Part shown: positions 5,709 to 64,000 of the stretch, piece by piece | Position numbering within the stretch: the first letter of the stretch is position 1 | Layout of the letters: the number at the start of each line of letters is the position of its first letter | Source of the DNA: Buddleja alternifolia | Lineage: Eukaryota > Streptophyta > Magnoliopsida > Lamiales > Scrophulariaceae | DNA length: 64,000 nt | Assembly (NCBI GenBank): GCA_019426215.1 | Contig: CM033393.1 | Coordinates: 24,678,591-24,742,590 of the forward strand | Direction: 5' to 3' | Made by a program: the position numbers and the translations under genes | The notes under the pieces: generated by a model | Databases searched by the model: none | Told to the model about the DNA's origin: nothing | What the model saw: only the letters and a program-made list of their open reading frames with translations

Positions 5709-7541
5709 TTAGGCGTTTAAATCAATCATACCTAGTTCACTTCTCAAAGTGAGAAAGCGTTGTTCGTTGAGCGCTTTGGTGAAGATATCTGTCAATTGTT
5801 TGTCAGTTCCTATAAAATGCATGGAGATATCTTTCTTTTGAACATGGTCACGAAGGAAATGGTATCTAATGTCAATGTGTTTGGTTCTTGAATGAAGAAC
5901 AGGGTTTTGAGTCATGGCTAGAGCGCTTTGGTTATCACAATGAATGGGGGTTGGACCTAGGATTGTTCCATAATATCTAAGTTGTTGCCTCATCCATAAA
6001 ACTTGTGCACAACAACTTCCTGCAGCTACATACTCAGCTTCGGCTGTGGAGGTCGCTATGGATTGTGTTTTCTTGCTATGCCATGAAACTAACCTATCAC
6101 CTAGAAATTGACAAGTACCACTAGTACTTTTACGATCTATTTTGCAACCTGCAAAATCTGCATCTGAGTAACTGATTAGTTCAAAAGGAGAATCCCTAGG
6201 ATACCATAAGCCCACATTTTGTGTGCCTTTTAGGTATTTAAGGATTTTCTTGGCAGCAATTAGGTGTGACTCTTTAGGATCAGCTTGAAATCGTGAACAC
6301 ATGCATACCGAAAACATGATATCAGGTCTACTGGCAGTAAGATAAAGAAGTGATCCAATGATACCTCTATAATTAGTGATACCAACATTCTTTCCACTTT
6401 CATCTTTATCTAACTTAAGCGTTTGGCTCATTGGAATTTTTGAATATGATGTATTTTCCATACCAAATTTCTTAATCATGTCTCTCGTATATTTAGCTTG
6501 GTTAATAAATATTCCATTAGGGAGTTGTTTAACTTGTAATCCTAAGAAGAAAGTTAACTCACCCATCATGCTCATTTCAAATTGTTCTTGCATCATTTTC
6601 GAAAATTTCTCACACAGACGCTTGTTAGTAGAGCCAAATATGATATCAGCAACATAAATTTGGACTAAGAGAATATCTTCGTTATTGGTAATTTTAAATA
6701 ACGTTGTATCAACGCTACCTTTTGAAAAGCCTTTACCAATAAGAAAGATAGAGAGAGTGTCATACCATGCTCGGGGTGCTTGCTTAAGCCCATAAAGTGC
6801 TTTGTCTAGCTTGTACACCATACCCTTACCATGGTAGTTGAAGAATCCCGGTGGTTGCTCCACATATACTTCTTCTTGGAGTTTACCATTCAGGAAGGCA
6901 CTCTTCACGTCCATTTGATACACTGTAAACTTGTTAAACGCTGCATACGCTAGAAACATGTGGATTGCTTCAAGACGGGCGACAGGAGCGTATGTCTCAT
7001 CAAAGTCAATGCCCTCTTCTTGGCAATATCCTTGAGCTATGAGTCTGGCCTTGTTTCTTATTACAATGCCATTCTCATCCATCTTGTTTCTATAAACCCA
7101 TCTAGTTCCAATGACTCCTTGGTGAGTTGGTCTTGGTACTAGTGTCCAAACCTTACTACGCTCAAATCGATTAAGTTCTTCTTGCATGGCTTCAATCCAA
7201 CTTGGATCACTTAGCGCTTCATCCACTTTCTTAGGTTCCATCTGAGATAAAAAGCTTGTGAACATAGCCTCATTGAATGTAGAGGCTCTCGTTCTAACAG
7301 GCGCTCCAATATCTCCAATAATTTGCTCTGGTGGATGATCTCGCAGCCATAGTCTATCTGGTTGGATGGGGTTAAGAGATTGAACAGGCGCTTGGGGATC
7401 AGACGCTTGACTACCTTCTTGCGTAGGCGCTTCAAATTCATAATTCCTTGTTTGCTCTTGATGATCACTCTCTTCATGATCATCAGCATTTCTTATATAA
7501 TTATCCATAGTAATCTCACGAGTAATCTTAGGAGGTGGCAC
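5709..7541 (-). pseudogene. pol: Sirevirus-like pol: reverse transcriptase and RNase H
   Basis: An open 610-residue frame encoding the C-terminal half of a copia polyprotein. It copies element RNA into DNA (RT) and removes the RNA strand (RNase H). Copia RT landmarks are clear: [60 protein letters not shown] and [12 protein letters not shown]. RNase H landmarks are [36 protein letters not shown] and [11 protein letters not shown]. The catalytic YVDD box reads YVADIIFG (residue about 298; codon GCT at 6650-6648), so the first metal-binding Asp is replaced by Ala and RT activity is unlikely. The frame is readable upstream to about 7720, where one frameshift separates it from integrase. It ends in LGMIDLNA. 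Confidence 0.92.
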
Positions 7542-7705
7542 TGAGATCTCATCATCGTCGTCAGTATCTTCATCAATAGTAATCTTAGACGCTTGATGAC
7601 AAAGATCTTCAACTCCTACATCATTTATATGAACCTTACTCGGTTCTTGGTTAGCATCATCAAAAACATCATGAATAGATTCCTCAACCTTCGATTTGCC
7701 CTTGT

Positions 7706-8947
7706 TTAGGATGCGAAATTCTTCCCATTCTTGGCGTAGCCTAGAAAGATTCCCTCATCCGCTTTAGGATCAAATGTCTTTAGGCTTTGGGATCCATTAT
7801 TATGAATAAAGCACTTAGAACCAAAGACGTGAAAATATGAGACATTTGGCTTACGTCCCTTCCATAGTTCATATGGAGTTTTTCCATGCTGTTTGTTGAT
7901 CATGCAGCGATTTTGAGTGTAACACGCAGTGTTGATCGCTTCGGCCCAAAACCTAGGAGCAAGCTTGGATTCTGCTAACATTATCCTAGCGGCTTCCTTA
8001 AGCGTTTGGTTCCGGCGCTCAGCAACACCATTTTGTTGGGGAGTTCTGGGAGCTGAATACTCATGATGTATTCCTTTTTCTGCACAAAACTTCTCAACAA
8101 TCTTGTTAGAAAACTCAGTACCGTGATCACTTCTTATTCTTGCAACTTTAAGATCTTTCAATGTTTGAAGTTTTCGAATAAGCGTTGTTAACTTGTCACA
8201 TGTTTCATCTTTGGATGACAGAAATTCCACCCAAGTAAATCGAGAGAAATCATCTACTATCACCAAAGTATACTTTTTACTACTTACACTGGTTGTTTGA
8301 ACAGGTCCAAACAGATCCATGTGAAGTAGTTCAAGTATTCTAGAGGTAGATAGATGAGGTTTTCTCTTGAACGATGACTTAACTTGTTTACCCATTTGAC
8401 AAGCGTCACAAAGGCGATCCTTGTGAAATGGTCCATTTGGTAATCCCTCTACAAGATTTTGACTTATAAGCTGAGAGATTGTTTTAAAGTTGAGGTGGTT
8501 CATTTTTCTATGCCATAACCAACCCTTTTTAGATTCATTTTTAGCAACAAAGCATGTTGGGTTGTTATCAAGTGTTGAACCCCAATCTACCAAATATACG
8601 TTATTAGTTCTTTTTCCTTTCAATTTAGTAGACTTAGTCTTAGCGTCGTTTATATAGCAATAGTCACTTGAGAATATGACTTCAAAGCCTTTATCACAGA
8701 ATTGACTTATGCTTAATAAATTGTGCTTCAGACCCTCAACAAAATAAACATCACTTATCATGATGTTCCCCCTATGCACAGTACCTATACCTTTGGTTTT
8801 ACCTTTGGAGTTGTCACCAAATACAACCTGAGGACCATTGGCAGCTCGATAGTTGATCAGAAGATCCTTGGAACCAGTCATGTGCCTTGACGATCCACTA
8901 TCAAAGTACCAAACAGATGTATCGACTCTAGCTCTAGGTACCTGCAC
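7706..8947 (-). pseudogene. pol: Sirevirus-like pol: protease and integrase
   Basis: Begins with the aspartic protease motif WYFDSGSSRHMTG, followed by the GAG-pre-integrase zinc region (WLWHRKMNHLNF ... LCDACQMGKQVKSSF) and the integrase core. Catalytic Asp/Asp/Glu lie in LLHMDLFGPVQT, ARIRSDHGTEFSN and QQNGVAERRNQTLK. Protease matures the polyprotein; integrase inserts the cDNA. The frame ends at 7706 after [13 protein letters not shown], where a one-base shift separates it from the RT frame. About 140 bases upstream to the gag remnant are also broken. Confidence 0.92.
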
Positions 8948-9090
8948 TCAAGAAGGGAAGTTCTATTTCTGTTTAGGTACCCATTGTTGCTTGGGTCCTT
9001 TAACATTAGTAACATTCTCAGTTTGAATTAGAACTTTAGGAACCCATATTTGCCTAGTCTTCATTGTAGGAATATTGGCCTTTTTGGGTT

Positions 9091-11167
9091 TCACATTGTG
9101 ATGTGTGTGCTTTTTGGATGTATAATAATATCCACGATTATAATAATAGTCATAATCATAGTCATAATCATAATCATCATAGTATCGATAATATTATCTT
9201 GACTGTCTTGGATATTGACGCTGGTATTTCCTTGGCACTGGCTTGGGTTGCACTTTTGGTGCTGGACGCTTAGCACTTGATTCACAGTTGTCAGTCTTAT
9301 CTTTAACTTTTTGAGCGTTTGGATAAACCCGTCTTTGTGAATCATTTGCCTTAGTTTTACCCTTGCCTGAGTTAGTTTTGACTTTCTCATTTGGCCTCTT
9401 ACCATTGTCACTTGGTTCATTTTGAGTTTGACCTTGTGAACCTTTTTCAACAAAGATAACACCCTTTCCTTTGTTGTAACATTTGATTGATTAGATTGTT
9501 TACCGAGTTTATCGCATCCTAAATCGGTCTTCTCACCAAATAATCTGGTTACTTCAGTCACATTATCCAGCTGTCTAGAGGCTTTTGATGATGATGAGAT
9601 GAGCTGCTCTGATTTGGCAAGTCTAGCGATCAAATCAGCTTCTCTCTTGACTATTATATCAAGATCACCTTTTAATTGAATAACTTCACTCTCAAGCGAT
9701 TGGTTTTTCTCAATGCACTGTTGCTGAATTCGCAACTCTGCTCTGAGCGTTACTTTATCTTTAGTGAGTGATGAAATAATAGCGATATCATTTTGATATA
9801 TTTTGGCAGCTTCTTGACATTCATATAGTATTCTCTGACTTTGTCAAGTAATTCATCATAAGAAAGAGGAATTGATAATTCATTGATTACCTCAGGAGAC
9901 GCTTCATCATCTCTGGCCATGAGACATATGAGCGCTGAGTCATCTAATGGCTCATCATCATCACTACTTTCGCTGATGATTCTAAATCTTCAGGTGCGGA
10001 TGCGGGTTCTGATTCCGCTAGCAAACCTTGTTGCCGAAGGTTGCTCCTGAATTGGTTTCTATCCAAGTAATCCTGCCTTGAGGGCTTGGATACGTTTGGA
10101 TAAGGGCAATTTACCTGGTGGTGCCCTGGTTTTCTGCAATTATAACAAAGATTAGTTTTCATCTTTTGTTCATTTGATAACCTTGTAGTGTGTGGCTTTG
10201 AGACCACGGGTGCTGAGAGATTTTGAGTGGACGCTTGATATTGAACAGGCGCTGAGGGTGAAGGAGCAGAATACTGAGGCGCTTGGTACTGTTGTTGTAC
10301 TGGAGTGGGCGCTTGATATGAACTTTGTCCTTGATTATTGAAACCTTTTCCTTTCTTTTCATATCTCAAGAACTTCCTGAATTTATTTAGCAAAGCGAAC
10401 TCTTCTTCCTCATTGATATCTGAACTCTTTCCTTTATTACCCGATTTGCCCTTGATTGATGCAATAAGCGCTCCAGATTCAATCACTGGACTACTCACAA
10501 TATCACTGGCAGAATTCAACTCGAACTCAAATGCTTTTAGTTCTGAAAAGGCGTCTTCTGGAGTTAGAAGATCCAGCATACTTGATTCTCTCATAGCGGT
10601 TGTCTTCATCAAGAATTTACTTGGTAAGCTTCTAAAAATTTTGACCACCATTTCTCGGTTCTGTAAATTCATTCCCAACGATGTAAGTTCTGTAACTAGA
10701 GCTGTAAATCTTATATCCAATTGCTCTAACGTTTCATTGGGTAGCATCTTAAATCCATTAAACTTTTCCTTGGCAATGGAAAGTCTGTTTTCTTTGATTT
10801 GGGCTGAGCCACCACAAATCGTAGCCAACTTATCCCATATTTCTTTAGTAGTTTTGCAAGATTTGATTTTGTGAAATAAGTTGTCATTATCACCAATAGT
10901 CGTATATAGAGCGTTACGTCCAACATTGTCTAAGTTAGCTCTTCGGCGCTCATCTGGAGTCCATTCTTGTTTTGGTTTTTCAACGTAACCATCGGGAGTT
11001 TCTTCTGTGGCTCCAGGTGCTCTCGTGATAACTTTATATATTTTGATTGGCCCATCTAAAATAATATCGCACATGTCATCATCACATGAACAGAGATATG
11101 TAAATGCTTTGACTTTCCATGTGTCATAATTTGATTCGTTCAGCTTGGGAACTTTAGCAAATGCCAT
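9091..11167 (-). pseudogene. gag: Sirevirus-like gag
   Basis: The first 407 residues (11167-9944) are open: an N-terminal copia gag domain (MAFAKVPKLNESNYDTWKVK; later EIWDKLATICGGSAQIKENR), a Gln/Pro/Ala-rich linker, and one CCHC zinc knuckle (CYNCRKPGHHQVNC) for binding element RNA. Frameshifts follow near 9960, 9775 and 9480. The downstream part contains a coiled-coil stretch (IQQQCIEKNQSLESEVIQLK) and, in another frame near 9180-9120, an Asp/Tyr repeat. The start was chosen for ATG at 11167, about 90 bases after the primer-binding site and followed by the conserved gag opening. Gag would form the virus-like particle in the cytoplasm. Confidence 0.9.
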
Positions 11168-20487: not shown

Positions 20488-21063
20488 CAATCCGGTCTTG
20501 TGCGAAAATTGATGTGGGCTGGTTCAAAGCCGAGCCACTAGCAGGCCCAAGTTGGGCACATCCCAGGCTTGCTTTCAACAGGCGTTTTTTGGATTTTGGC
20601 CCGATTAGTGCACCAGGTCGTGCCGAGTTAAGCAAGGATGGTCCTCCAAGTTGTCGGCCCAGTGGGGTTGACATCTTAAACACATGCTCAGAATGAAAAG
20701 AAAAACAAGAAGGGCCTGTTTGGATGTGTTTTAAATTTACTTTTTTTTATTTTCATTTTCATTTAAAAATGAAAATATACAATTTATATCATTCCCAATT
20801 GAAAATACAATTATTTTCATTTTCTACTTTCACTTTTTCCAAAAACTACCTTTTACTTTACCAAATCAACTCACATTTTTCTCTCTATCACATCTCTTTC
20901 TAAGAAATCATATTTTCGACAACAATTATAGTGTTATAATGGAATAATATACATAGTATTAACCTTCATAAACTTGTGGAGATTTTAAGACCCAATTTGA
21001 GTATTTTTAGTGATTTTTTGGAGGGCCAATCTTTATCATTTTTACTTGTAAATATATTTAATA
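20310..21063. repeat. Duplicated segment, copy 1 (left part, split by copia insertion)
   Basis: Aligns with 31413-32100: the same order of T-rich tract, SINE-like part, GGCCCAAGTT region, GGGCCTGT-type inverted-repeat start and AT-rich interior. It continues after the copia element at 30929-31231. It contains an (AT)n run at 20452-20484 that is absent from copy 2. Confidence 0.85.
20325..20450 (-). mobile_element. tRNA-type SINE-like sequence (copy 1)
   Basis: On the minus strand TTGCTCAATGGCC (A-box-like), then GGATTCGAATCCC (B-box-like) about 30 bases on, ending in an A-rich tail (the T-rich stretch on plus at 20335-20350). The same unit is at 31441-31575. Target duplications were not resolved. 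Confidence 0.5.
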
Positions 21064-23198
21064 TGTTAGAGTTAGTGCCCGGCGCACCAATTATTGGGCG
21101 TCATTCTATGTAATAGTAACTCTAGAGCTGAACAATCGTTTTCTTATAAATAAAGTCAATCTCTTTATATATGTGGCATGTCTTTATTCTTAAATGAGTT
21201 TTTACTTTGGCTTAGAATAAAGTCCCGAAGGATCACATATAGCTATGAGACATCATTGCACATTAGGTGTGGCAATGATGGAATATGTCTCAAAGGCTGT
21301 GATCTTTAAACATTGTTCCAAGTCGTGAAAGGGTTCATCGAGATAAAGGGATATCGATGCAACCCAAAAGACTTGCTCATATGATGCATACTCTGGTAGA
21401 AGTGTATCTCGTTCCATAGATACTGGCACTGTGAAAGCCAATGCATATATGAGGGTTGCCATTGTGGTAATGGGCGAACTGAACAACCCCATGGAAGTTC
21501 CTGCAATGGATTCCCAGTCGAATGTGGAACTTCCAGTGGTCTTGTAGTATAAGAGTAATCCTAATGGACCTAAGATTCCATTAGATGTCTTATGCGTAAC
21601 CGCGCATGTTCTTGATTTGTTACATGATCACTTTAGATGATCGAATATGGGCAAACTCAGACATGCACGTCTTACGTAGTAAGGCACGTGAGAATCAAGA
21701 GGAATCTATCTCTGACATTAGCCAGTCGGTTAATCTCCTATGGTTACGTAGTGAATCGACTTAAGGAATCTTCGGCCGAAGTATGATATTTAAAGAGGCC
21801 TAGGGTTTCCTCGTTTAGATAGTCGAAGTCGATTTCACATGACGTGGAAACATAGGATTGAATTAATAGATCTTCGACCTTAGCCACTGCTCTAGATTCA
21901 ATCGGGAGATTAGATAGAGGAATCTTACTTATACGAGGATCAAGATCGCAAAAGGCGTATCTTTACTTTCGTTTTATCTAGGTCTTCGGGACCTTATGCT
22001 AGGTGGGCAACCGCGATTTGTAAGTGCCGAAAATTAGCTAGGTGACTAATTCGAGGCTTGATTAAATCAAAGGATTGATTTAAACTAGTACTTTCCATTT
22101 TTTGAAGGTACACTAGCATTGTGGGAAGGTGTACTTACTACTAGATAGAAACGAGCTTAAGGGGTCACACACTAACTCGAGAGAGTCACTGCTTGATTAG
22201 ATGTGATTAATCAATTTCGAGGAAATTGAGGGAATTAGGAAAGTGTAGTACTTTCCTAATATGGAATATAAATTAATTGAAGGATTTAATTAATTTTACT
22301 CTTTTAATTAATCTTGTAGAATTAATTAAATTAATGGACCTAGTAGAGTCCAAGTATTTTATTTAATTGGGTGGAGCCCAAGTTAAATAAATAAATGTTG
22401 GAATTAATTGGTTGGATTTAATTTGACTTGTATTTAATTGATGGGTTGTGCCTATAATTAAATTGAGAAGTCAAAATTGAACCCTAGAGTCCAATTGAAT
22501 GTGTTGATCGATTTCTTGAATGATAATAAGGGAAGGGAGCGATTTTTTACATGTGGTGGAGGAGGAAAAGAGTTTTCCCCTTCTCCAAGTCTTCATAGGA
22601 TAAGGATTACTAGAGAGTTTAGGAGAAAGGAAGTTTCCTTTTCCTAATTGGACTCTAGGTAATCTTCACCTATAAATAAGAGAAGAAGGAGACTAAAAAT
22701 GATGATGGTTTTTGCTAGAAAATCCGCCCCCCTCACTAGACTAAGAATCGGCCACCTTTCTCTCACTTCCAACAAGACGTCGTTCTATTCATGTGTTGAA
22801 TTAAACGACTTATTTTCCTACCCTTCATATAATCAAGCCTAAGTTAAGCTTAGAATCGTTTTGTTGTCTAGCACGCAAGGCAAGACGATTGGTGACTTGA
22901 ACGAGGTGTGGATACATCTTAGAGGTGCGACGCTTGGAGCACTCTAAACCAGGGGATACGAAAAGACGACGGGAAATTTCTCACCCATGGGAAATTGTGT
23001 GGATTTGCACCACAGGGTTGCTGAGATCCAAAGTACGAGGTGAAACGAAATTTTCGAAAGGTATAATTTCGTTTACCTCCTTATCAAATTCGATCGAACC
23101 AATTGCATATTCCTATTTTCGGGTGGTTGTACGTTTACTTTTATAAAATTTTAATTTCCGCTGCCACGAGCCACCCGAGGGAATGAGTCAACTCAACA
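21064..23198 (+). repeat. 5' LTR of copia element 21064-30928
   Basis: Starts TGTTAGAGTTAGTGCC, ends GTCAACTCAACA, followed after one base by the primer-binding site. It contains the palindrome CTTCGGCCGAAG (21770-21781) and a 10-bp perfect inverted repeat near the 3' end (23043-23074). Another copy of this LTR, on the minus strand, begins at 63134. Confidence 0.95.
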
Positions 23199-23199
23199 G

Positions 23200-23211
23200 T
23201 GGTATCAGAGC
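23200..23211 (+). other. Primer-binding site, initiator tRNA-Met
   Basis: TGGTATCAGAGC, one base after the 5' LTR. Confidence 0.95.
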
Positions 23212-24894
23212 CATGGTTTGGCTCGATCGAATTTTTGATGTGATTATGCATGTTTGTTTTTACGTTTTAATTGTAAAATCGAAAGCATGATAATCAATAT
23301 GTTCATTGTGAGACTAGGATTGATTTTGATTTGGGATGTTGTTTGATTTTTATGATTTTAATGTTTAAAAGTCATTGGTTTTAAAAATCATGAAATCTGA
23401 AATTTGGGTATATGATTGTTTTCAAAGGTTTTGATCTAGTTTTATGAAATAACCTTTGGTGGGGTGTTGCGAGATGGATGAACCGAAGGTTTAATCATCA
23501 AGTAATAAAACTCAGACCTTAGGAGAATTCAGATTCGTTAATCGAAACTCGAACGAATCACGAACGTGCGAAAAACTGATTTGAAAATCGCAAACAGCAA
23601 CAGCCGCTGCACGCGGCGCCCAGACGCGCGTATGACCACGCCCAGACGTGGTCAACAGAAAGTTAAAACAACAATTTTTTTTCCTTTCTTCGTACTTTCT
23701 GAAGGTGGGTGACTCAAAGACCTTACCTATGATGTTTTAGACTTGTAAACTCTGAGAAAGGTTTTAGAAATCAATATCGAACTTATCCCAATGATATTTG
23801 CAATCTAGTTTGAATGATGAATGGGTAAAATTTACTTTATCACATGTATGTTTGTTGCTTGGCATGTTTATGTGATAAAAGGATGAACCACGAGCCTAGT
23901 CATAGTGTTGGTTTTCTACGTATGTAATTATTCTAGAGTTGTAAATAATAGCCGGTTTGGCTCTTTACTTTTCCGCATAGTAGATTAGTAGTTTTTAAAT
24001 ATTCTATGTAATCGAAGACGGAGTAAGGAGATAGAGTCGGGACTTGAAGACTTGTATGCTAAGGCGATACCATTGTAATAGTCTAGGTTGGTTTTTACTT
24101 TCTAGAATGTCCAAACCCACTTTGGCTCGAGTGGGTTTACTAGGTTAGGGCTCGAGGTGGTTCATCCTCAATTTTACCGCTTTGTGGATGTTTTATCTGT
24201 CTATGATGATTATGTGATGTAATGCATGCATAGGATAGATAACTAAAACAAGATAATTAAATCTGATGAGACCCCCTATATAAGCATGTTATAATTCCCT
24301 CCTGTGAAAATATTAGGCTTTTGTGATTGTAAGAATGGAATTCTATTATCATACCTTCCATCATAAGTATTCACCATGTGAAACACCGCCAAAGGTTCAA
24401 TCCTTTTGCTCAGAAAATGGGGTGGATTGGATGTGAGGTACGCTGTGAGTGTTTACTAAGCACTACGGTGCCCCGTGGAAATCGGTTGGTTTCATTGCTT
24501 TGCTCAAAAAATGGGGGCAATGGAATTGATGGTTATACATGGGATATTTGATGGGTCGACCCTAACATCGTCCCTCATGTGTTAGCTCAGAAAATGGGGC
24601 ACATGTGGGAGATGAGGAAAACCATCTTGAGAACTATCTAAAAGGATAGAAGGTCTGGTAAGGCTACTATTCAAAATCATCGTATGTTAGCTCAGAAAAT
24701 GGGGCATATGATGAAGTGAGAATAGATCTCAAGCCCACTAAAGAAACTAATGTTTCTTCGAATCATGTCAAGAGGGTGGTGTGATTTGAGAAAAATAGTG
24801 GGAGACTTGTACAATTAAAGACCAAATTGTATAAGGACTTTATTTGAAAATCCGTTATTAATTGTCTGTTATGCATTTTTGTAGATAAACGAAA
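23212..24894 (+). promoter_or_regulatory. Long 5' leader of the copia element
   Basis: Nearly 1.7 kb between primer-binding site and gag, with no long frame. It holds a perfect 9-bp hairpin at 24113-24138 and an array of four related hairpins at 24396-24714. The position upstream of gag suggests RNA functions such as packaging, dimerisation or translation, but this is inference. Confidence 0.7.
24396..24714 (+). ncRNA. Array of four hairpins with conserved loop and unrelated stems
   Basis: Four stem-loops share an 18-base core, TTWGCTCARAAAATGGGG, at 24405-24422, 24499-24516, 24582-24599 and 24687-24704. Flanking arms pair in every case though their sequences differ: TTCAATCC/GGATTGGA, TTTCATTGC/GCAATGGAA, CCCTCATGTG/CACATGTGGG (one mismatch) and TCATCGTATG/CATATGATGA. 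Inside the core, CTCA can pair with TGGG around an RAAAA loop. G-U pairs occur only if the plus strand is the RNA, the sense strand of the element. Conserved loop plus changing but paired stems indicates a selected RNA structure. The role is unknown. Confidence 0.8.
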
Positions 24895-25677
24895 ATGGCT
24901 AAAAATCCTCTTTATACAATTCTTGAAACCAACAAACTGAACGGACCAAACTTTCCGGACTGGCTTAGAAACCTCAAAATTTTTCTTCAATATGAAAGGA
25001 AGGATTATATCCTAACGGCTATACAGCCGGTGATTAACGATGAAAGCAGTGATGAGGATAGAGAGTACGCAAAGCTGTGGTCGGATGATAACATCCAGGC
25101 TAGATGCATCATCATGACTTCTATGTCAAATGAGTTGCAAAAGCAACATGAAAATATGATGATAGCAAAGGAAATCATCGACCATTGACAAGAGCTTTAC
25201 GGTACTAGGACTAGGAGAGAACGATATGCTATATCAAAACAACTGTTTGGAGCAAGGATGAATGAAGGGGCATCTGTGAGTGAGCACATCCTTAAGATGA
25301 TCCAATTAATTCATAAGATGAATGATTTGGATGTGCTACTCGACGGAGACCTTTGTGTCGATCTTGTGCTTCAATCTCTCCCAAAGTCATATGATCAATT
25401 CGTCATCAATTTCAACATGAACAACTTGAATGCTTCACTGAATGAACTGTTGAACATGTTGATAACTGCTGAAAGCACCATCAAGAAGAACAAACCGGTG
25501 CTTCTTATGAATTCATTTTCTAAAGCCAATAAGGGCAACAAGAAGAAGAATAAGACTAAGAAGCTGAAAGGTAATGGTGGTGTGAAGAAGGTAAAGAAGC
25601 CAAAGTCTGAGAAGTCTGATAAGTGCCATAAATGTGGAAAAGTTGGGCACTGGCAAAGGAACTGCAAAGAGCCTCTG
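24895..25677 (+). pseudogene. gag: copia gag
   Basis: Starts MAKNPLYTILETNKLNGPNF, the usual copia gag opening (LNGxNFxxW). A TGA at 25186-25188 interrupts it after KEIIDH. The frame resumes as QELYGTRTRRERYAISKQLF and, from 25258, MNEGASVSEHILKM. A lysine-rich stretch (KKNKTKKLKGNGGVKKVKK) precedes one CCHC zinc knuckle, CHKCGKVGHWQRNC, at about 25624-25665. Gag packages the element RNA. One stop codon is the only break seen in this part. Confidence 0.92.
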
Positions 25678-26780
25678 GCTCAAGGTATGTTCTTTGTTGA
25701 AGTTAACTTTACTGTTAACAATACTTCTTGGGTTCTTGACACTGGATGTGGTGTTCATATCTGCAATGATTTGCAGGTGATGAGAAGAACCAAGGAGCTA
25801 AGTAGAGGAGACATAACCCTCCAGATGGGGAATGGAGCATTGGTTGCTACCAAAGTCGTAGGGACGATCTACTTAGAGTTAGGAGATAGGAAATTAGTTT
25901 TACATTTCGTTTATTTTGTTCCTGAAATAATAAGAAATATTATCTCGATTCCGGTTTTGAATAGAGAAGGATATTGTTTTGAGATTCGTAATAAAAGTTT
26001 ACTTTTGTTTTATGAATCGTCTCTTATTATGGAATCAAAAATGAAAGATGGAATGTATACTATATCCCCAATAATTTCCAATCTCAATATTCAACTAAGT
26101 AACAAACGTAAACAAGATAATCAAGTAAGCACGCAAATGTGGCACGAAAAACTTGGACATATTTCCAAAGAAAGAATTCGAATATTGGCAAAACATTTAG
26201 GTGTAAATGACTTAGATGAATTGTCAAGTTGCGCATCATGTCTTAAAGGAAAAATGACCAAGTTACCATTTTCAGGGAAAGCGGAACGAGCCACAAAACC
26301 ATTGGACTTGGTCCATACGGACGTGTGCGGGCCAATGAGTGTTGGCACTCAAGGTGGCCAAAGCTACTTCATAACTTTTACCGATGATTATTCACGGTAT
26401 GGTTATTTATATCTTATGAGATATAAGTCTGAATCCTTTGAGAAGATTAAGGAGTTCAGAAATGAAGTAGAGAAACAACTTGGTAGAAGTATTAAGGCTC
26501 TTCGATCGGATCAAGAAGGTGAATACTTGTCTACCGAGTTTCTTGATTATCTTAGAGAGAATGGAATTCTCTCACAGTGGACACCGTCCGGCACGCCTCA
26601 ACATAACGGGTAGCCGAGCAAAGGAATCGAACATTGCTAGATATGGTTCAATTCATGATGTGTTTTACTAAAGTTCCTAAGTCCATGTGGGGCTATGCTC
26701 TTGAAACGCTGTCTATCTGTTGAATAGATCACCTAGCAAGACGGTGCCCAATACCCCATATGAAAGTTGGTGTGGAAAGA
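25678..26780 (+). pseudogene. pol: copia pol: protease and integrase
   Basis: The protease catalytic motif is WVLDTGCGVHIC (about 25729-25764). The GAG-pre-integrase zinc region (MWHEKLGHISKERI ... CASCLKGKMTKLPF) and integrase core follow, with the first two catalytic Asp in DLVHTDVCGPM and LRSDQEGEYLS. The frame stops at 26613 right after TPQHNG. The region that should hold the catalytic Glu (about 26600-26720) is scrambled by indels and stops before the reading frame resumes near NRSPSKTVPNTPYESW. Integrase cannot be made as one piece. Confidence 0.92.
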
Positions 26781-28771
26781 CGCCCTCATATAATCATTTG
26801 AGAATATGGGGGTGTCCAGCTTATGTAAAGCATTTAGTAGGAGACAAATTGGACCCCAAGTCTTCTTTGTGCTATTTTGTAGGATATCCAAAGGAAACTG
26901 TTGGATATTACTTCTATAGCCCGACGGAACAAAAGGTTGTTGTTTCGAGAAACGCCAATTTCTTAGAGAGGGGTCACCTTCTGGATAGAAAAGGCGAGGC
27001 TGCAGAACTTGATGAGGTCCATGAGAGTGGGTCAAGTCAAGAAATACAAATTAACCCACCCAACACCAACGAGGCTACATCAGTGGCACCCACCGAAAAC
27101 ACACAACCTTTGAGGAGATCAAGGAGGATCCCAAAGGAGCCTGAAAGATGGCTAGGCCTATTGCAAGAGGAGGGTACTCAAGATCCTCCTCTAGACTCTG
27201 ATCCGAAAAGTTTTAAGAGTGCAATGTCTGACATTGATTCGAGAAAATGGCTAGAGGCCATGACATCCGAAATGGACTCCATGTACTCTAACAAGGTATG
27301 GACCTTGGTTGACCCACCTGAGGGCATCAAGCCCATTGGTTGTAAGTGGGTCTACAAGCGAAAGCTTGGAGTCGATGGAGAGGTAACCTATAAGGCTCGC
27401 CTCGTGGCAAAAGGATTTACTCAAAGACAAGGGATTGACTATAAGGAAACCTTCTCGCCAGTGGCTATGCTGAAATCCATTAGGATTATGCTTACAATAT
27501 CTGCATATTTTGATTATGAAATATGGCAGATGGATGTAATGACTGCATTCCTCAATGGAGAAATTGAGGAAGAGATTTACATGCAACAGCCAGAGGGCTT
27601 TACATCCAAAGGGAGCGAACATAAAGTATGTAAACTTCAAAGGTCCATCTATGGACTTAAGCAAGCTTCTCGAAGTTCGAACAAACGTTTTGACACAGTC
27701 ATACAAGAGTATGGATACGTTCAAAACGTTGAAGAGGCATGTGTGTATAAGAAAGTCAGTGGGAGCGCAGTCACGTTCATCATACTTTATGTCAATGACA
27801 TCCTACTAATTGGAAATGATGTAGGGATGATGCAGTCGACTAAAGTATGGCTCTCTAATAAATTCTCCATGAAAGATATGGGAGAGGCGTCCTACATACT
27901 CGGTATGAAGATCTATAGGGATAGATCGAGTAGGATGTTAGGTCTCTCCCAATCTGCATATATCGATCGCGTACTCAAAAGATTTGAGATGGAAGAGTCC
28001 AAGAAGGGATTCTTGCTAATAGGACATGGTATCACACTTTCCAAGTCTATGTGCCCAAAGATTGAGGAAGAAAGAGTGAAAATGTCCAAAACTCCTTATG
28101 CTTCTGCGATAGGTAGTATAATGTACGCGATGATATGCACAAGATCCGATGTAGCTTATGCATTGAGTGCGTGCAATCGATATCAAGCGAATCCAGGCAT
28201 GGCACACTGGAGTTCGGTGAAAACAATCCTTATGTATCTAAGGAGAACTAAGGAGTTGTTCTTGATATACGGACGAGGAGAATTGGAATTAGAGGGGTTT
28301 ACTGATTCGAGTTTCCAATCCGACAAGGATGACTCGAAGTCGGTCTCTGGGTTTGTATTTCTGCTTAATGGCGGAGCGGTTAGCTGGAAGAGTTCCAAGC
28401 AAGCAACCATAGCCGACTCCACCACTGAAGCAGAATTCATTGTAGGAAATGAGGCTGCAAAAGAAGCTGTTTGGATGAGGAACTTCATCAAAGAATTGGG
28501 TGTCGTTCCATCCGTTGGGGATCCAGTAACGGTATACCGTGATAACAACGGGGCTATTGCGCAAGCAAAAGAGCCGAGGTCTCATCAGAAATCCAAACTT
28601 GTTCTGAGGAAATTCTGATTGACACGAGAAATCATTGGAAGAGGCGACGTGCGAATGGAGCGCGTGGATACAACGGACAACATAGCGGACCCACTCACCA
28701 AACCCCTTAGCCAAAAAGTATTTGAAGGACATCTGGGAAGAATGGGCCTTAAGTACATGGGCAATTGGCAC
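26720..28771 (+). pseudogene. pol: copia pol: integrase tail, reverse transcriptase, RNase H
   Basis: A 632-residue open frame. RT landmarks are WLEAMTSEMDSMYSNKVW, CKWVYKRKLGVDGEV, ETFSPVAMLKSIRIML, QMDVMTAFLNGEIEEE and SIYGLKQASRSSNKRF. The catalytic YVDD reads YVNDILLIGND (codon AAT at 27794-27796, residue about 359), an Asp-to-Asn change that should abolish polymerase activity. RNase H follows (GFTDSSFQSDKDDSKSVSG, STTEAEFIVG, YRDNNGAIAQA). A TGA at 28616-28618 stops it early; the normal tail (LTREIIGRGDVR ... ADPLTKPLS) is still readable in frame to about 28771. Confidence 0.93.
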
Positions 28772-28773
28772 TA

Positions 28774-28788
28774 GAGCAAGTGGGAGAT
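28774..28788 (+). other. Polypurine tract of the copia element
   Basis: AGCAAGTGGGAGAT lies directly before the TGTTAG start of the 3' LTR. Confidence 0.85.
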
Positions 28789-30928
28789 TGTTAGAGTTAG
28801 TGCCCGGCGCACCAATTATTGGGCGCCATTCTATGTAATAGTAACTCTAGTGCTGACAATCGTTTTCTTATAAATAAAGTCAATCTCTTTATATATGTGG
28901 CATGTCTTTATTCTTAAATTAGTTTTTACTTTGGCTTAGAATAAAGTCCCGAAGGATCACATATAGCTATGAGACATCATTGCACATTGGGTGTGGCAAT
29001 GATAGAATATGTCTCGAAGGCTGTGATCTTTAAACATTGTTTCAAGTCGTGAAAGGGTTCATCGAGATAAAGGGATATCGATGCAACCCAAAAGACTTGC
29101 TCATATTATGCATACTCTGGTAGAAGTGTATCTCGTTCCATAGATACTGGCACTGTGAAAGCCAATGCATATATGAGGGTTGCCATTGTGGTAATGGGCG
29201 AACTGAACAACCCCATGGAAGTTCCTGCAATGGATTCCCAGTCGAATGTGGAACTTCCAGTGGTCTTGTAGTATAAGAGTAATCCTTATGGACCTAAGAT
29301 TCCATTGGATGTCTTATGTGTAACCGCGCATGTTCTTGATTTGTTACATGATCACTTTAGATGATTGAATATGGGCAAACTCAGACATGCACGTCTTACG
29401 TAGTAAGGCACGTGAGAATCAAGAGGAATCTATCTCTGACATTAGCCAGTCGGTTAATCTCCTATGGTTACATAGTGAATCGACTTAAGGAATCTTCGGC
29501 CGAAGTATGATATTTAAAGAGGCGTAGGGTTTCCTCGTTTAGATAGTCAAAGTCGATTTCACATGACGTGGGAAACATAGGATTGAATTAATAGAGCTTC
29601 GACCTTAGTCACTGCTCTAGATTCAATCGGGAGATTAGATAGAGGGATCTTACTTATGCGAGGATCAAGATCGCAAAAGGCGTATCTTTACTTTCGTTTT
29701 ATCTAGGTCTTCGGGACCCTATGCTAGGTGGGCAACCGCGATTTGTAAGTGCCGAGAATTAGCTTGGTGACTAATTCGAGGCTTGATTAAATCAAAGGAT
29801 TGATTTAATCTAGTACTTTTCATTTTTGGAAGGTACACTAGCACTTTGGGAAGGTGTACTTACTACTAGATAGAAACGAGCCTAAGGGGTCACAAACTAA
29901 CTCGAGAGAGTCACTGCTTGAATAGATGTAATTAATCAATTTCGAGAAAATTGAGGGAATTAGGAAAGTGTAGTACTTTCCTAATATGGAATATAAATTA
30001 ATTGAAGGATTCAATTAATTTTACTCTTTTAATTAATCTTGTAGAATTAATTAAATTAATGGACCTAGTAGAGTCCAAGTATTTTATTTAATTGGGTGGA
30101 GCCCAAATTAAATAAATAAATGTTGGAATTAATTGGTTGGATTTAATTTGACTTGTATTTAATTGATGGGTTGTGCCTATAATTAAATTGAGAAGTCAAA
30201 ATTGAACCCTAGAGTCCAATTGAATGTGTTGACCGATTTCTTGAATGATAATAATGGAAGGGGGCAATTTTTTACATGTGGTGGAGGAGGAAAAGAGTTT
30301 TCCCCTTCTCCAAGTCTTCATAGGATAAGGATTACTAGAGAGTTTAGGAGAAAGGAAGTTTCATTTTCCTAATTGGACTCTAGGTAATCTTCACCTATAA
30401 ATAAGAGAAGAAGGAGACTAAAAATGATGATGATTTTTGCTGGAAAATCCGCCCCCCTCACTAGACTAAAAATTGGCCACCTTTCTCCCACTTCCAACAA
30501 GACGTCGTTCTATTCATGTGTTGAATTAAACGACTTAGAAAAATATTCCTACCCTTCATATAATCAAACCTAAGTTAAGCTTAGAATCGTTTTGTTGTCT
30601 AGCACGCAAGGCAAGACGATTGGTGACTTGAACGAGGTGTGGATACATATTAGAGGTGCGACGCTTGGAGCACTCTAAACAGGGAGATACGAAAGATGAC
30701 GGGCAATTTCTCACCCAAGGGAAATTGTGTGGATTTGCACCACAGGGTTGCTGAGATCCAAAGTACGAGGTGAAACGAAATTTTCGAAAGGTATAATTTC
30801 GTTTACCTCCTTATCAAATTTGATCGAACCAATTCCATATTCCTGTTTTCGGGTGGTTGTACGTTTACTTTTGTAAAATTTTAATTTCCGCTGCCACGAG
30901 CCACCTGAGGGAATGAGTCAACCCAACA
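28789..30928 (+). repeat. 3' LTR of copia element 21064-30928
   Basis: 2,140 bp, close copy of 21064-23198, ending CCCAACA. The conserved palindrome is at 29494-29505. Confidence 0.95.
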
Positions 30929-31231
30929 TAATCAACATAATATTATCTATTGTTTTATCTACACTATTCACATAATCATTACTTTTAACTAACTCAACCA
31001 TTTCACACATCATCAAATCATCAATTTCAATCATTTTCATAAAACACAACCAAATATACTGTCATTTTCACACAAAAATCAAACAACCCATTTTCCCATA
31101 TATTTTAGGAAAATAACAATTAAAAAAGAAATGAAAACACATCCAAACACAGCCGAACATTTCCAAAAGTTCAAACTGGCAAAAATTACAATAATTCAAC
31201 TAAGTACCACGGGAAATTGAAACAGAAAGTA
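30929..31231. repeat. Duplicated segment, copy 1 (right part)
   Basis: Continuation of the interrupted MITE and its right flank, ending ACGGGAAATTGAAACAGAAAG as copy 2 does at about 32378. Confidence 0.85.
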
Positions 31232-31412
31232 CCACGGGGTAATCTTTATTATTTTTACTTATAAATATATTTAATCAATATAATATTATCTATTATTTTA
31301 TTTATACTATTCACATAATCATTACTTTTAACTAATTCAACCATTTCATAAATCATCAATTTCAATCATTTTCATAAAATACAACCAAATATGCTGACAT
31401 TTTCACACAAAA
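31232..31412. repeat. Partial extra copy of the MITE interior, uninterrupted copia target site
   Basis: Repeats the second half of the MITE. AATATATTTAATCAATATAA spans the site where the copia element entered copy 1 (TAATC at 31272-31276), so it shows the pre-insertion state. Confidence 0.85.
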
Positions 31413-53493: not shown

Positions 53494-54509
53494 TTAGACA
53501 TAAAATTGATTTTGAATATTCCAAGGGCGAGTGAGTGGTTTTCCCTTGCCATCCACCAACTCATAAGCTCCTTCTGCTACTACTTTGACCACTTTGTAAG
53601 GACCTTCCCAATTGGGGTCCAGCTTTCTCACTGTACGGACAACATCCACCCTCTTTAGCACCAGGTCTCCTACCTGGAGAGCTCGGGTCTTCATTTTTAC
53701 TCCTTGAGCCTTTTGGATTCTATGCTTGTATTTCTCCATTCGTAGATATGCCCTCGTCCTGTTCTCCTCGATCAAATCCAGATCTTCTCTCAACCTCTCC
53801 TCATTGTGCTCTGGATCAAAGTACCTGACCCGGTGGGTCGGTACTCTGATCTTTGCAGGTATGACAGCTTCAGCTTCGTACACCAGGTTAAAAGGACTGT
53901 CTCCTGTAGTAGACTTGGGAGTGGTCCGATACGACCATAATATAGATTGTAGTTCATCTACCCAATTCCCTCCCGCTCCTTCCAGTCTATTTGACCGAGG
54001 TTTCAGTTTTGCAAATGGGTTAGCAACACATTTATACAGGAGGTATATAGGATTGGATGATAAATTTGAAACAAGGAAATTGATACAATAGAGAGATTTC
54101 AAGTATGCATACCTGGTTTTTAAACCTTGTACTATAATTCTATTGGTGACCTCAACCTGACCATTGGTCTGAGGGTGAGCCACCCAACTGAAACGCTGCT
54201 GAATTTCCAACTCCTCAGCTTTGCTCCACTGAACTGTCGTCCATTATCAGCTATTATCTCTTTAGGTATGCCAAATCGGCACACTATGTTCCTCCATAAG
54301 AACCGAATAACTTCTGCCTCCGTGATCCGGGCTAGAGCTTCAGCTTCCACCCACTTGCTGAAATAATCTACTAGTACTAGTAGAAACTTCTTTTGGGCCT
54401 TTTCTATAGGGAAAGGTCCCACAATGTCCATGCCCCATCTTGCAAATGGGCAACGGACATTCATTGTGCGCATCACTTCCTCAGGTTGATGGATAAGGCT
54501 GGCATGCAC
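53494..54509 (-). pseudogene. pol: gypsy pol: integrase core and C-terminus
   Basis: The core begins after a TAG at 54512-54510 (KKCEQC-stop-VHASLIHQP). Catalytic residues are in RWGMDIVGPFP (Asp), IIADNGRQFSG (Asp) and NGQVEVTNRI (Glu). A frameshift near 54215 separates the first two from the third. The conserved GLK-RLEGAGGNWVDEL motif is split by a precise 126-bp in-frame insert (54112-53987). The C-terminal part (YRTTPKSTTGDSPFNLVY; GDLVLKRV; PNWEGPYKVVKV) is complete and ends at 53494. Integrase would join element cDNA to host DNA. Confidence 0.92.
53987..54112 (-). other. Intron-like in-frame insert in the integrase
   Basis: 126 bases with GT at the start and AG at the end on the minus strand. 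A CTAAC branch-site-like motif lies about 37 bases before the end. Removing it restores the family motif ...GLKTRLEGAGGNW exactly. It has no stop codon in frame, so it can also be read through as 42 extra residues. Confidence 0.55.
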
Positions 54510-55811
54510 CTAGCACTGTTCACATTTCTTCACCAGCTCGGCTGCATCTTCTTTTAAAGTCGGCCAAAAATATCCAGCTCTGAGTGCTTTCCCTGCTAGG
54601 GCAGCCCCTCCTATGTGGCTGCCGCAAAACCCTTCATGGATTTCTCTGAGCACGTAGCCTCCTTCTTCCTTGGACACACACTTTAGGTGCGGCTGCACAA
54701 ACGCCTTCTTATAGAGGATATCGTCGATCATGGTGAGCCTAGATGCTCGTGTGAGCAACTTTTGTTTGGAGTTTTGTTCTTCGGGTAACGTTCCATTCGT
54801 GAAATATTGGATTAATTCGGTCCTCCAATTGTCTCCTTTTTCCACCTGCAAGACCTCCTTACCACTACTAGATCTTGCTACAGACTGGATGGTGATTTGC
54901 CGTGTCTTGCAATCGGTGACAGAGCTACCCAGCTTTGACAAGTAGTCTGCCTTCGCATTTTCAGCTCGAGGTATCTGGTGTACCTCCAGCTTATCGAAGT
55001 TTTCTCGTAAGGTATCTTTGGTTTTTAGATACTCCATCATTCTCTTCTCCTTGGCTTCATACTCCCTTTCTACTTGTTTTATCACGAGCTGCGAATCTAA
55101 ATATACTATCAGGTTCCTAGCTCCTCCCTTGAGTGCCATTTGGAGGCCTATGGTGAAGGCTTCGTACTCTGCTTCATTGTTGTTTGCCTTGAACTCGAAT
55201 TTGATGGCATACTCAAGTTGGTCGCCTTCAGGCATGGTGAGCACCACACCTGCACCACTCCCATTCTGCGTAGCTAAGCCATCTACGTGCACCAACCACA
55301 CCTTCTCTTCTTTGTCTTTCGCCACATTAGGTTTGGTCATTTCCGTGACAAAGTCAGCCAAAATTTGTGACTTTATTGCTGTTCGAGCTACATACTCTAT
55401 CTCGAATTCTCCCAGCTCGACCGCCCACTTGACTAACCTCCCTGATGCTCCAGCTTTGCCCAACATAGCGTTGAGTGGCTGATTGGTTTTGACTATGATT
55501 TTGTATGTCAGCAAATATGGCTTCAACCTTCTTGCCGTTATAACTAAGGCAAATGCCATTTTTTCAATTTCGGAGTACCTCGTCTCCGTGTCACTGAGGA
55601 CCTTGCTAATGTAGTATACCGGCTTCTCAACTTTTTCTTCTTCCCGAACTAAGACCGTGCTGACAGCTTTGTCAGCTACCGCTATATACAATATTAACGA
55701 TTCACCAAGCACAGATTTGGTCAACAGCGGAATTTGACTTAGATACTCCTTCAGGTCAGCAAAGGCTTGCCGACATTCTTTCGTCCAACTGAAGCCTTCA
55801 GCTTTTCGCAA
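54510..55811 (-). pseudogene. pol: gypsy pol: RNase H, Tat-type second RNase H, integrase zinc finger
   Basis: An open 433-residue frame. First the RT-linked RNase H (YIAVADKAVSTVLVREE ... TRYSEIEKMAFALVITARR), which is partly decayed in Tat elements. Then a second RNase H with its own acidic residues (WLVHVDGLATQNGSGAGVVL, NNEAEYEAFTIGL, VYLDSQLVIKQV, IPRAENAKADYLSKL). Then the integrase zinc-binding region (VLREIHEGFCGSHIGG ... LVKKCEQC) up to TAG at 54512-54510. Two RNase H domains in a row identify the Tat lineage. A TAA near 55833 separates this frame from RT. Confidence 0.93.
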
Positions 55812-55835
55812 TATCTTGAAGAACGGAAGACTCCT

Positions 55836-56912
55836 TTAGGCAGATTTGGAAATAAAATGACTTAGGGCAGTGATTCGCCCCTTTAATCTTTGCACCTCAT
55901 TGACATCTCGAGGATCCGCCATGTTTTGGATTGCTTTGATCTTCTCGGGATTAACTTCTATCCCCTTCTCTATAACCAGATACTTGAGGAATTTTCCTCC
56001 CTTGATTCCGAAAGCGCACTTTGCTGGATTCAACTTCATTTGGTATTTTCTCAACGTCTCGAAGGTTTGTTGTAAATCTTGTACATGCGTGCTAGTAGCT
56101 CGACTTTTTACCACCATGTCATCAACGTACACCTCGATATTCTTCCCGATTTGGTCACGAAACATGATATCAACCAACCTTTGATAGGTTGCTCCTGTAT
56201 TCTTTAATCCGAAGGGCATAACCACGTAACAATACGTGCCAAAGGTAGTTATAAAACTAACCTTCCTTTGGTCTTCCTCGTATAGAGGTATCTGATGATA
56301 CCCACTTTGTGCGTCCATGGTACTTAGTAATTCGAATCCAGTTGTGGAATCCACCAGCTGGTCTATCCGTGGCAATGGATAGTGGTCTTTTCGACAGGCA
56401 TTGTTTAGGTCGCGGAAGTCAATGCACATCCTCCATTTTGATCCTCCCTTAGGCACCAAGACTACATTAGAGACCCATTCTGGGAATTGAATTTCTGCAA
56501 TGTGCCTGGCCTTGAGGAGCTTATCCAGCTCAGCCCGGACTATGGCATCCTTCTCTAGTATGAAGTGCCTCTTCTTTTGTATGACCGACTTTGCATCTGG
56601 GTACACGTTCAGATGGTGTTGTATGACAGCTGGGTTGATCCCTACTAGGTTGTTAGCTGACCAGGAAAATATATCTGCGTAGTTGCGCAACGTTGCTATC
56701 AACTCCTCCTTCACTTCTGGATTCAGGTGTGATCCTATCCTGACAGCTTTATCCACCTCCCCTGGCACGAGCTCTATACTCATGAGTTCCCCCACTGGCT
56801 CAACGTGGGCTGAGACCATCTTCTTTTTTGCTCCGCCATCTTCGAGACCAACTTTATCAGGTTTGCGCTTCTTGTCTTCCAGAGGCTTGTCCACTTGTTT
56901 GAGTGACGCCAC
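55836..56912 (-). pseudogene. pol: gypsy pol: reverse transcriptase
   Basis: 358 open residues. Motifs: FPEWVSNVVLVPKGGSKWRM, CIDFRDLNNACRKDHYPLP, STMDAQSGYHQIPL, TYCYVVMPFGLKNTGATYQR and the intact catalytic box YVDDMVVKS. Unlike the two copia elements, the active site is unchanged here. The frame ends at a TAA after HFISKSA near 55836, and upstream it is separated from protease by stops and shifts around 56930-57100. Confidence 0.95.
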
Positions 56913-63133: not shown

Positions 63134-64000
63134 GTTGGGTTGACTCATTCCCTCGGGTGGCTCGTGGCAGCGGAAGTTAAAATTTTACATGAGTAAACGT
63201 ACAACCACCCGAAAACAGGAATATGGGTTGGTTCGATCGAATTTACAGGGAGGTAAACGAAATTATACCTTTCAAAATTTTCGTTTTCACCTCGAGCTTT
63301 GGATCACAGCAACCCTGTGGTGCAAATCCACACAATTTCCCTTGGGTGAGAAATTGCCCGTCGTCTTTTCGTATCTTTCGATTTAGAGTGCTCCAAGCGT
63401 CGCACCTCTAAGATGTATCCACACCTCGTTCAAGTCACCAATTGTTTTGCCTTGCGTGCTAGACAACAAAACAATTCTAAGCTTGCCTTAGGCTTGAATA
63501 TGTGAAGGGTAGGAATATTTCTAAGTCGTTTAATTCAACACATGAATAGAACGACGTCGTGTTGGAAAGAAGGAGAAAAGGTGGCCAATTTTTAGTGGCT
63601 TGGAGGGGGCAAAAATTTCAGATTTCAAGCATTCTCAATTTAGTCTTCATCATCTCTTATTTATAGGTGAAGATTACCTAGAGTCCAATTAGGAAAAGGA
63701 AACTTCCTTTCTCCTAAACTCTCTAGTAATCTTTATCCTATGAAGACTAGGAGAAGGGGAAAACTCTTTTCCTCCTCCACCATATTAAAATCGCCCCCCT
63801 CCCTTATTTCAAGACATAAAATCGGTCAACACCATTAATTGGACTCTAGGATTTAATTTTGACTTCTTAATTTAATTATAGGCTCAACCCATTAATTAAA
63901 TACAAGTCTACTTAAATCCAACCAATTTAATTTCCAACATATTATTTATTTAACTTGGGCTTTACCCAATTAAATAAAATACTTGGACTCTACTAGGTCC
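63134..64000 (-). repeat. LTR of the 21064-30928 copia family, continues past window end
   Basis: Complement of about 30060-30928, beginning TGTTGGGTTGACTCATTCCC on plus (an LTR 3' end on minus). The promoter half lies outside the window. Confidence 0.92.

Follow-up and report, generated by a model that had tools for sequence, protein, structure and literature searches.

The window, the whole stretch of 64,000 nucleotides that was analyzed, contains a decayed Ty1/copia element whose leader carries four hairpins, each presenting the same 18-base core on its own paired stem. This hairpin array is a feature of a large Ty1/copia family in the host genome, its fold is kept through compensatory changes, and its heads are specific to the family that bears them. 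From these properties, the hairpins may form an array by which genomic RNA is recognized in a family-specific way, the likeliest reader being the element's own Gag and the outcome packaging; the structure is well supported, and the function is put forward as a serious but tentative reading. To our knowledge, how plant LTR retrotransposons select their own RNA for particles is largely open, and a countable, family-specific array would offer a concrete site to probe and would predict which families could cross-package.

The element lies on the + strand between a 5′ LTR (21064–23198) and a 3′ LTR (28789–30928), identified from the sequence and as direct repeats of each other. A primer binding site (PBS; TGGTATCAGAGC) was recognized by sequence at 23200–23211 (+). 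The start of gag (24895–25188, +) opens with the ATG at 24895, 1.7 kb from the PBS, and meets an in-frame TGA after 97 codons; pol extends to 28776. Two other elements occupy the minus strand of the window. A second copia element (5709–11167) has RVT_2, integrase and gag domains, fewer than 100 nt between PBS and gag, and no array in its leader, and gypsy-type remains (53494–56912) retain reverse transcriptase, RNase H and integrase zinc-binding domains.

The core, TTWGCTCARAAAATGGGG, starts at 24405, 24499, 24582 and 24687 without a mismatch, exactly where a preliminary description of this DNA had placed it. Allowing up to 3 mismatches, the 64-kb window holds exactly four cores, and 100 shuffles of the window held a mean of 0.43 and a maximum of 3. 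Spacing from core start to core start is 94, 83 and 105 nt. The array sits in the last third of the leader, with the first core 490 nt and the last 208 nt upstream of the gag ATG. Hairpin units 1 to 4 (24395–24432, 24489–24526, 24572–24609 and 24677–24714, all +) were each defined by core match, folding and covariation, and unit 4 also by an alignment across the subfamilies A and B and the family C described below. The claim that the arms pair in every unit was borne out, with 9, 10, 9 and 10 of the ten flanking positions per side paired in units 1 to 4 (7, 8, 9 and 9 when only Watson-Crick pairs were counted); at 63591 other positions in the window, 9 or more pairs occurred in 0.25% and 10 in 0.03%. 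Sense folds of units 1 to 4 reached −13.2, −14.1, −19.0 and −15.6 kcal/mol (z = −2.5, −4.2, −3.7 and −4.9), and antisense folds −5.6, −5.5, −12.3 and −6.0 kcal/mol. The sense strand folded better in 4/4 units, in agreement with the earlier remark that the G-U pairs fit sense RNA only. The segment 24360–24895 (536 nt) folded as a whole with z = −7.3.

In the head, the first and last core bases form a U.G pair, above which stand a 3-nt 5′ bulge (UUG or UAG in the window units), a CUCA/UGGG upper stem and a 5-nt RAAAA loop. The preliminary description had already seen CTCA/TGGG around an A-rich loop, which holds, and the U.G pair and the bulge are additions to it. The P1 stem of units 2–4 runs straight into the U.G pair; unit 1 is the odd one, keeping the same register with one U-U mismatch below that pair. 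The same description overstated the independence of the stems, calling them unrelated and their arms wholly different. Compared with unit 3 over 31 nt, the other window units were 68, 74 and 90% identical, the last value being that of unit 4. Exchanged arms paired at 3 to 8 of 10 positions, against 9–10 for own arms; joining the 5′ arm of unit 3 to the 3′ arm of unit 4, for example, would give 8/10 pairs. On the strength of this identity and arm exchange between units 3 and 4, an array of four wholly unrelated stems was dropped as a description. Rfam covariance models had no match to positions 20900–31300 at E values up to 1.

Downstream of unit 4, a second structured block (24734–24802, +) is closed by CCCACUA/UAGUGGG and has recognizable counterparts in B and C. 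A PPT-like sequence, GTGGGAGA, occurs in the leader at 24796–24805 and again before the 3′ LTR at 28780–28788, and the leader copy is retained in B and C.

Across the host genome (853.6 Mb), 1800 exact cores were found, and the reversed pattern was found 0 times. For sampling, 35 clusters, all located on a single contig, were drawn from the listed places and joined with the window to give 36 sequences; a lone listed core at C1:26477376 was excluded. Two loci (L127 and L128) were dropped, as each had only one unit, to which LTR sequence was joined. These two, on contig C1, share the same joint between an LTR piece and unit 4 at a short common sequence, a rearranged form that has been copied. 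The remaining 34 leaders have 3 to 5 units apiece and comprise 20 of subfamily A and 14 of subfamily B; one (L137) carries a fifth unit at another 105-nt spacing. When loci were instead cut out around the best gag matches, the array was present in 30/30 and four units (at most 3 substitutions) in 27/30, a set that includes the window itself and two loci repeated from the core sample. Identity between A and B per 50 columns was 0.26–0.76 from the PBS to about 23840 and 0.66–0.92 from there to 24878, so that high conservation extends beyond the array. Two types of Gag N-terminal half, MAKNPLYT... and M(A)NPFKT..., each follow both A and B leaders, and the basic region and zinc knuckle are alike across A and B; recombination seems to have swapped the start of gag. 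Named Gag relatives among the 120 matches listed included those of Sesamum, Phtheirospermum, Striga, Henckelia, Hibiscus and Trifolium. In viral contigs, a 15-base core gave single-match places only, among 80 listed of at least 120 stretches, a two-core pattern gave 0 matches there and 0 in the genome contigs collection, and Gag queries found no relatives in viral contigs.

Covariation was scored over 16 units from four copies (14 distinct), a set that partly compares different units of one element. Paired cells made up 91.9% of the alignment and 74.8% after shuffling, and the covariation score was 0.519 against 0.190 in shuffles (0/500 as high), with slid registers at 0.128 or below. With both paired cells and covariation score above those of 500/500 shuffles and of all slid registers, the earlier proposal that this is a selected RNA structure is well supported. 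The count of P1 pairs changed on both sides (7/11) does not stand out as a measure, since 209/500 shuffles reach it. Between A and B, stem 1 has been rebuilt and stem 2 has ..GC/GC.. in the one and ..AC/GT.. in the other; the upper stem hardly varies and shows no covariation in A and B. The preliminary description had named identical stems in related copies, or decayed pairing, as outcomes that would count against it; taken as a whole the relatives show neither, with the qualification that outer pairs are gone in units 1B and 3B. Its interpretation overall is retained as regards selection on RNA structure and given up as regards wholly unrelated stems. In a B copy (L158), own arms paired at 7, 10, 7 and 8 of 10 positions, and the 5′ arm of its unit 3 makes 8 pairs with unit 4 and 7 with its own partner.

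Of 61 leaders, the 53 that have exactly four units were used to count single-base changes. Within stems, pair-keeping transitions exceeded pair-breaking ones (A>G 24/1270 vs. T>C 3/1269; C>T 44/1198 vs. G>A 20/1196); spacers showed no such excess, with counts of A>G 119/6279, T>C 70/5462, C>T 101/3152 and G>A 199/4249. The excess in stems had a Fisher P of 1.7e-7 when counted by cells, from copies that share ancestry, and the contrast was weak when counted by columns (stems 26/90 vs. 17/90; spacers 96/356 vs. 114/368).

Family C was reached with a Striga Gag query, for which 137 of 19613 candidates were scored. It shares the genome of A and B, where its numerous, nearly identical places with 1303-aa open frames suggest that it amplified recently. 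Three of its leaders were fetched, of which two (L206 and L208) have landmarks in common with A and B and the third (L207) aligns near its end only. Unit 4 of C has a P1 stem of UUAAUUAUUAUGUAU/GUAUGUAAUAAUUAA, a GUG bulge, UCCA/UGGG and the loop UAAAAU (z = −5.6). When unit 4 was aligned across A, B and C, 96.7% of cells were paired against 93.0% in shuffles, and the score was 0.382 against 0.296 (0/500); the 3 pairs changed on both sides are not outstanding, as 114/500 shuffles reach 3. Units 1 and 2 of C place a common head, GACCAUUGCAAGUGG, with a palindromic UUGCAA, on AGUC/GACU and AAGUU/AACUU stems. Unit 1 folded with z = −2.4, and units 2 (0.2) and 3 (−0.5) folded no better than shuffles. 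The heads of A and C differ, though both families share one genome. In several units of A, B and C the fold survives via compensatory changes, and some units fold poorly. On the three C leaders, a covariance model (R1) gave as its top match the true unit 4 of L206 (E = 0.079), beside chance matches. Another distant Gag query (P0002) again yielded rows that resemble family C.

Against bacterial assemblies, the Gag alignment matched 4 loci, three of them (L210–L212) strongly. These three are copia sequences within Streptomyces clavifer and Labilibacter sediminis assemblies, probably plant contamination. The Streptomyces assembly locus L210 defines family D, which has an uninterrupted gag-pol frame and four hairpins near 1763, 1857, 1928 and 2162 (z = −3.4, −1.8, −2.5 and −2.7) with the constant head GGCCAYCCCUUCGGUGGA. 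Units 1–3 of D stand on one stem, unit 3 having UUGGUG/CCAA in place of UUAGUG/CUAA, and unit 4 stands on a different stem, GUAGGCUC/GGGUUUAU. L212 (‘E’) was considered as further support and not counted, as it has two copies of one motif with weak folds (z = −1.3 and −2.3). A YCA/UGG upper stem above a 2–3 nt 5′ bulge recurs in A, in C unit 4, in C units 1–2 and in D, a likeness that we read as a common plan, with homology not proven. The kept pairs of unit 4 in A, B and C and the like plan of D, an independent family, add to the support for a selected RNA structure.

Splice-like sites flank the leader. A donor-like AAG|GTATAA lies in U5 (23058–23066, +; predicted first intron base 23061) and an acceptor-like TTTTTGTAG directly before gag (24876–24884, +), and the two may be used as donor and acceptor. 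Upstream of the PBS, AAGGTATAAT or AAGGTAAAAA was present in 22/25 PBS-bearing leaders (A 15/16, B 7/9), and in the one A locus without it (L129) the sequence is cut off there. By family the donor-like sites are AAG|GTATAA (A), AAG|GTAAAA (B), AAG|GTAAGA (C) and AAG|GTATGG (D), some 128 to 195 nt before the PBS. The acceptor-like TTTGTAG|AT of A, B and C has at most 2 substitutions in 33/34 A and B leaders, with AG intact in 32, and is aligned in C; the corresponding sequences before gag are TATATCCAG in D, TTTATTTCAG in L211 and TTTCTACAG in L212. AU-rich leaders yield acceptor-like sites by chance, and the short-leader copia element of the window has TTTAG 3 bases before its gag ATG. Between the sites (23061–24890) there are 60 ATGs, and 5 upstream of the donor (22691–23060). 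A genome search for the exact joined-junction pattern matched a single, unrelated place (control 2); because spliced RNA would lack the PBS, genomic copies of a spliced form are unexpected, and the junction search neither supports nor refutes splicing. Most likely, PBS and array lie inside one intron and would both be present on unspliced genomic RNA only. If it exists, such an intron from U5 to gag would account for how a single transcription unit can serve translation as well as replication.

Under packaging by Gag, the variable P1 would be a scaffold that need only pair, and the head would be what the reader recognizes. A head that is constant in a family and differs between families of one genome, on stems that merely pair, leads us to expect a family-encoded protein as the reader. 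As Gag varies in its N-terminal half, which has two types, and is alike in its basic and zinc-knuckle region, the C-terminal part is the likelier reader. Spliced RNA would be the gag-pol mRNA, and unspliced genomic RNA alone would show PBS and array; Gag, through its basic region and zinc knuckle, would then bind the repeated heads together, and genomic RNA would be chosen for particles. A fuller model, possible and held with more reserve, makes the array a modular address within a leader intron that also holds the PBS: splicing would make the gag mRNA and strip away all replication signals, and head and Gag zinc-knuckle region would co-diverge, preventing cross-packaging.

Nuclear export or splicing control is an unlikely alternative, in which a host protein on the repeated heads would let unspliced genomic RNA escape splicing and exit the nucleus. 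Retroviral constitutive transport elements provide a working parallel, the array sits within the putative intron, and repeated bulged motifs suit multivalent binding; a host reader should fix the head, yet the A and C heads differ in one genome. Quite improbable is control of translation, in which a structured leader, having no leader intron, would guide ribosomes past upstream ATGs by shunting or internal entry. The 60 ATGs and the strongly structured leader would fit it, and plant pararetroviruses are known to use ribosome shunting (PMC5902531), but splice-like sites are kept at both ends, and a shunt requires a stable structure, not a constant head.

We consider it very unlikely that the hairpin loops serve genomic RNA dimerization or primer-tRNA placement. 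The self-complementary loop of retroviral dimer sites is absent from A and B, whose RAAAA loops make a kissing-loop dimer site improbable for the window family, and no 8-base complement to the core occurs in the leader or LTRs (two chance-like 8-base matches lie at 25514 and 26266). The C head does contain the palindromic UUGCAA, in units 1 and 2, and Ty1 is described as dimerizing through palindromes (PMC8396678). Hardly credible is the idea that the leader repeats act as DNA, as an enhancer or binding site, and pair only incidentally: repeated leader motifs of Drosophila copia are enhancers according to a title cited in PMC2829016, and the stems here stay paired through G-U pairs that fit sense RNA only. 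Equally slight is the chance of neutral duplication, a foldback multiplied in the leader and hitch-hiking; the fifth unit of L137, the clear relatedness of units 3 and 4 and the recent shared ancestry of copies would suit it, and compensatory changes between families and the D array with another head go against it.

Among known systems, retroviral Psi consists of leader stem-loops read by Gag. The present array likewise consists of stem-loops situated between PBS and gag in the 5′ leader, and it would, like Psi, be confined to unspliced RNA; it differs in that one head is repeated on different stems, 3–5 per leader, that Gag is a putative reader, and that the donor-like site lies in U5, upstream of the PBS. 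In the open-licence PubMed Central literature, seen in part, no array of constant-head hairpins was found, which does not establish its absence from print. Ty1 belongs to the same superfamily, and its Gag prefers a cis-acting 5′ RNA structure; the account available describes a pseudoknot, palindromes and tRNA boxes, and no repeated hairpin array (PMC8396678). BARE, also a plant copia element, has separate pools of packaged and translated RNA, with splicing involved, but its intron is in the gag ORF, its pools are split by start site, and no hairpin array is described in the available text (PMC3735527). Sireviruses resemble the present family in having repeated dyads in noncoding parts of plant copia; as far as the available portion describes them, these are CGG-CCG boxes that lie near env and, in the LTR, upstream of TATA, and in which the whole box is repeated and not a constant head on variable stems (PMC2829016). 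CGG-CCG is absent from the cores, which sit in the leader and not in the LTR. In satellite virus STNV-1, the reader is the coat protein, and the same source also reports evidence against AxxA motifs as packaging signals in vivo (PMC6475782). Its putative multi-site packaging stem-loops nevertheless have the same design of several hairpins with one loop motif (AxxA) on variable stems (PMC6475782), and the arrays described here show that design within limits, window stems 3 and 4 being partly alike and D units 1–3 sharing a stem.
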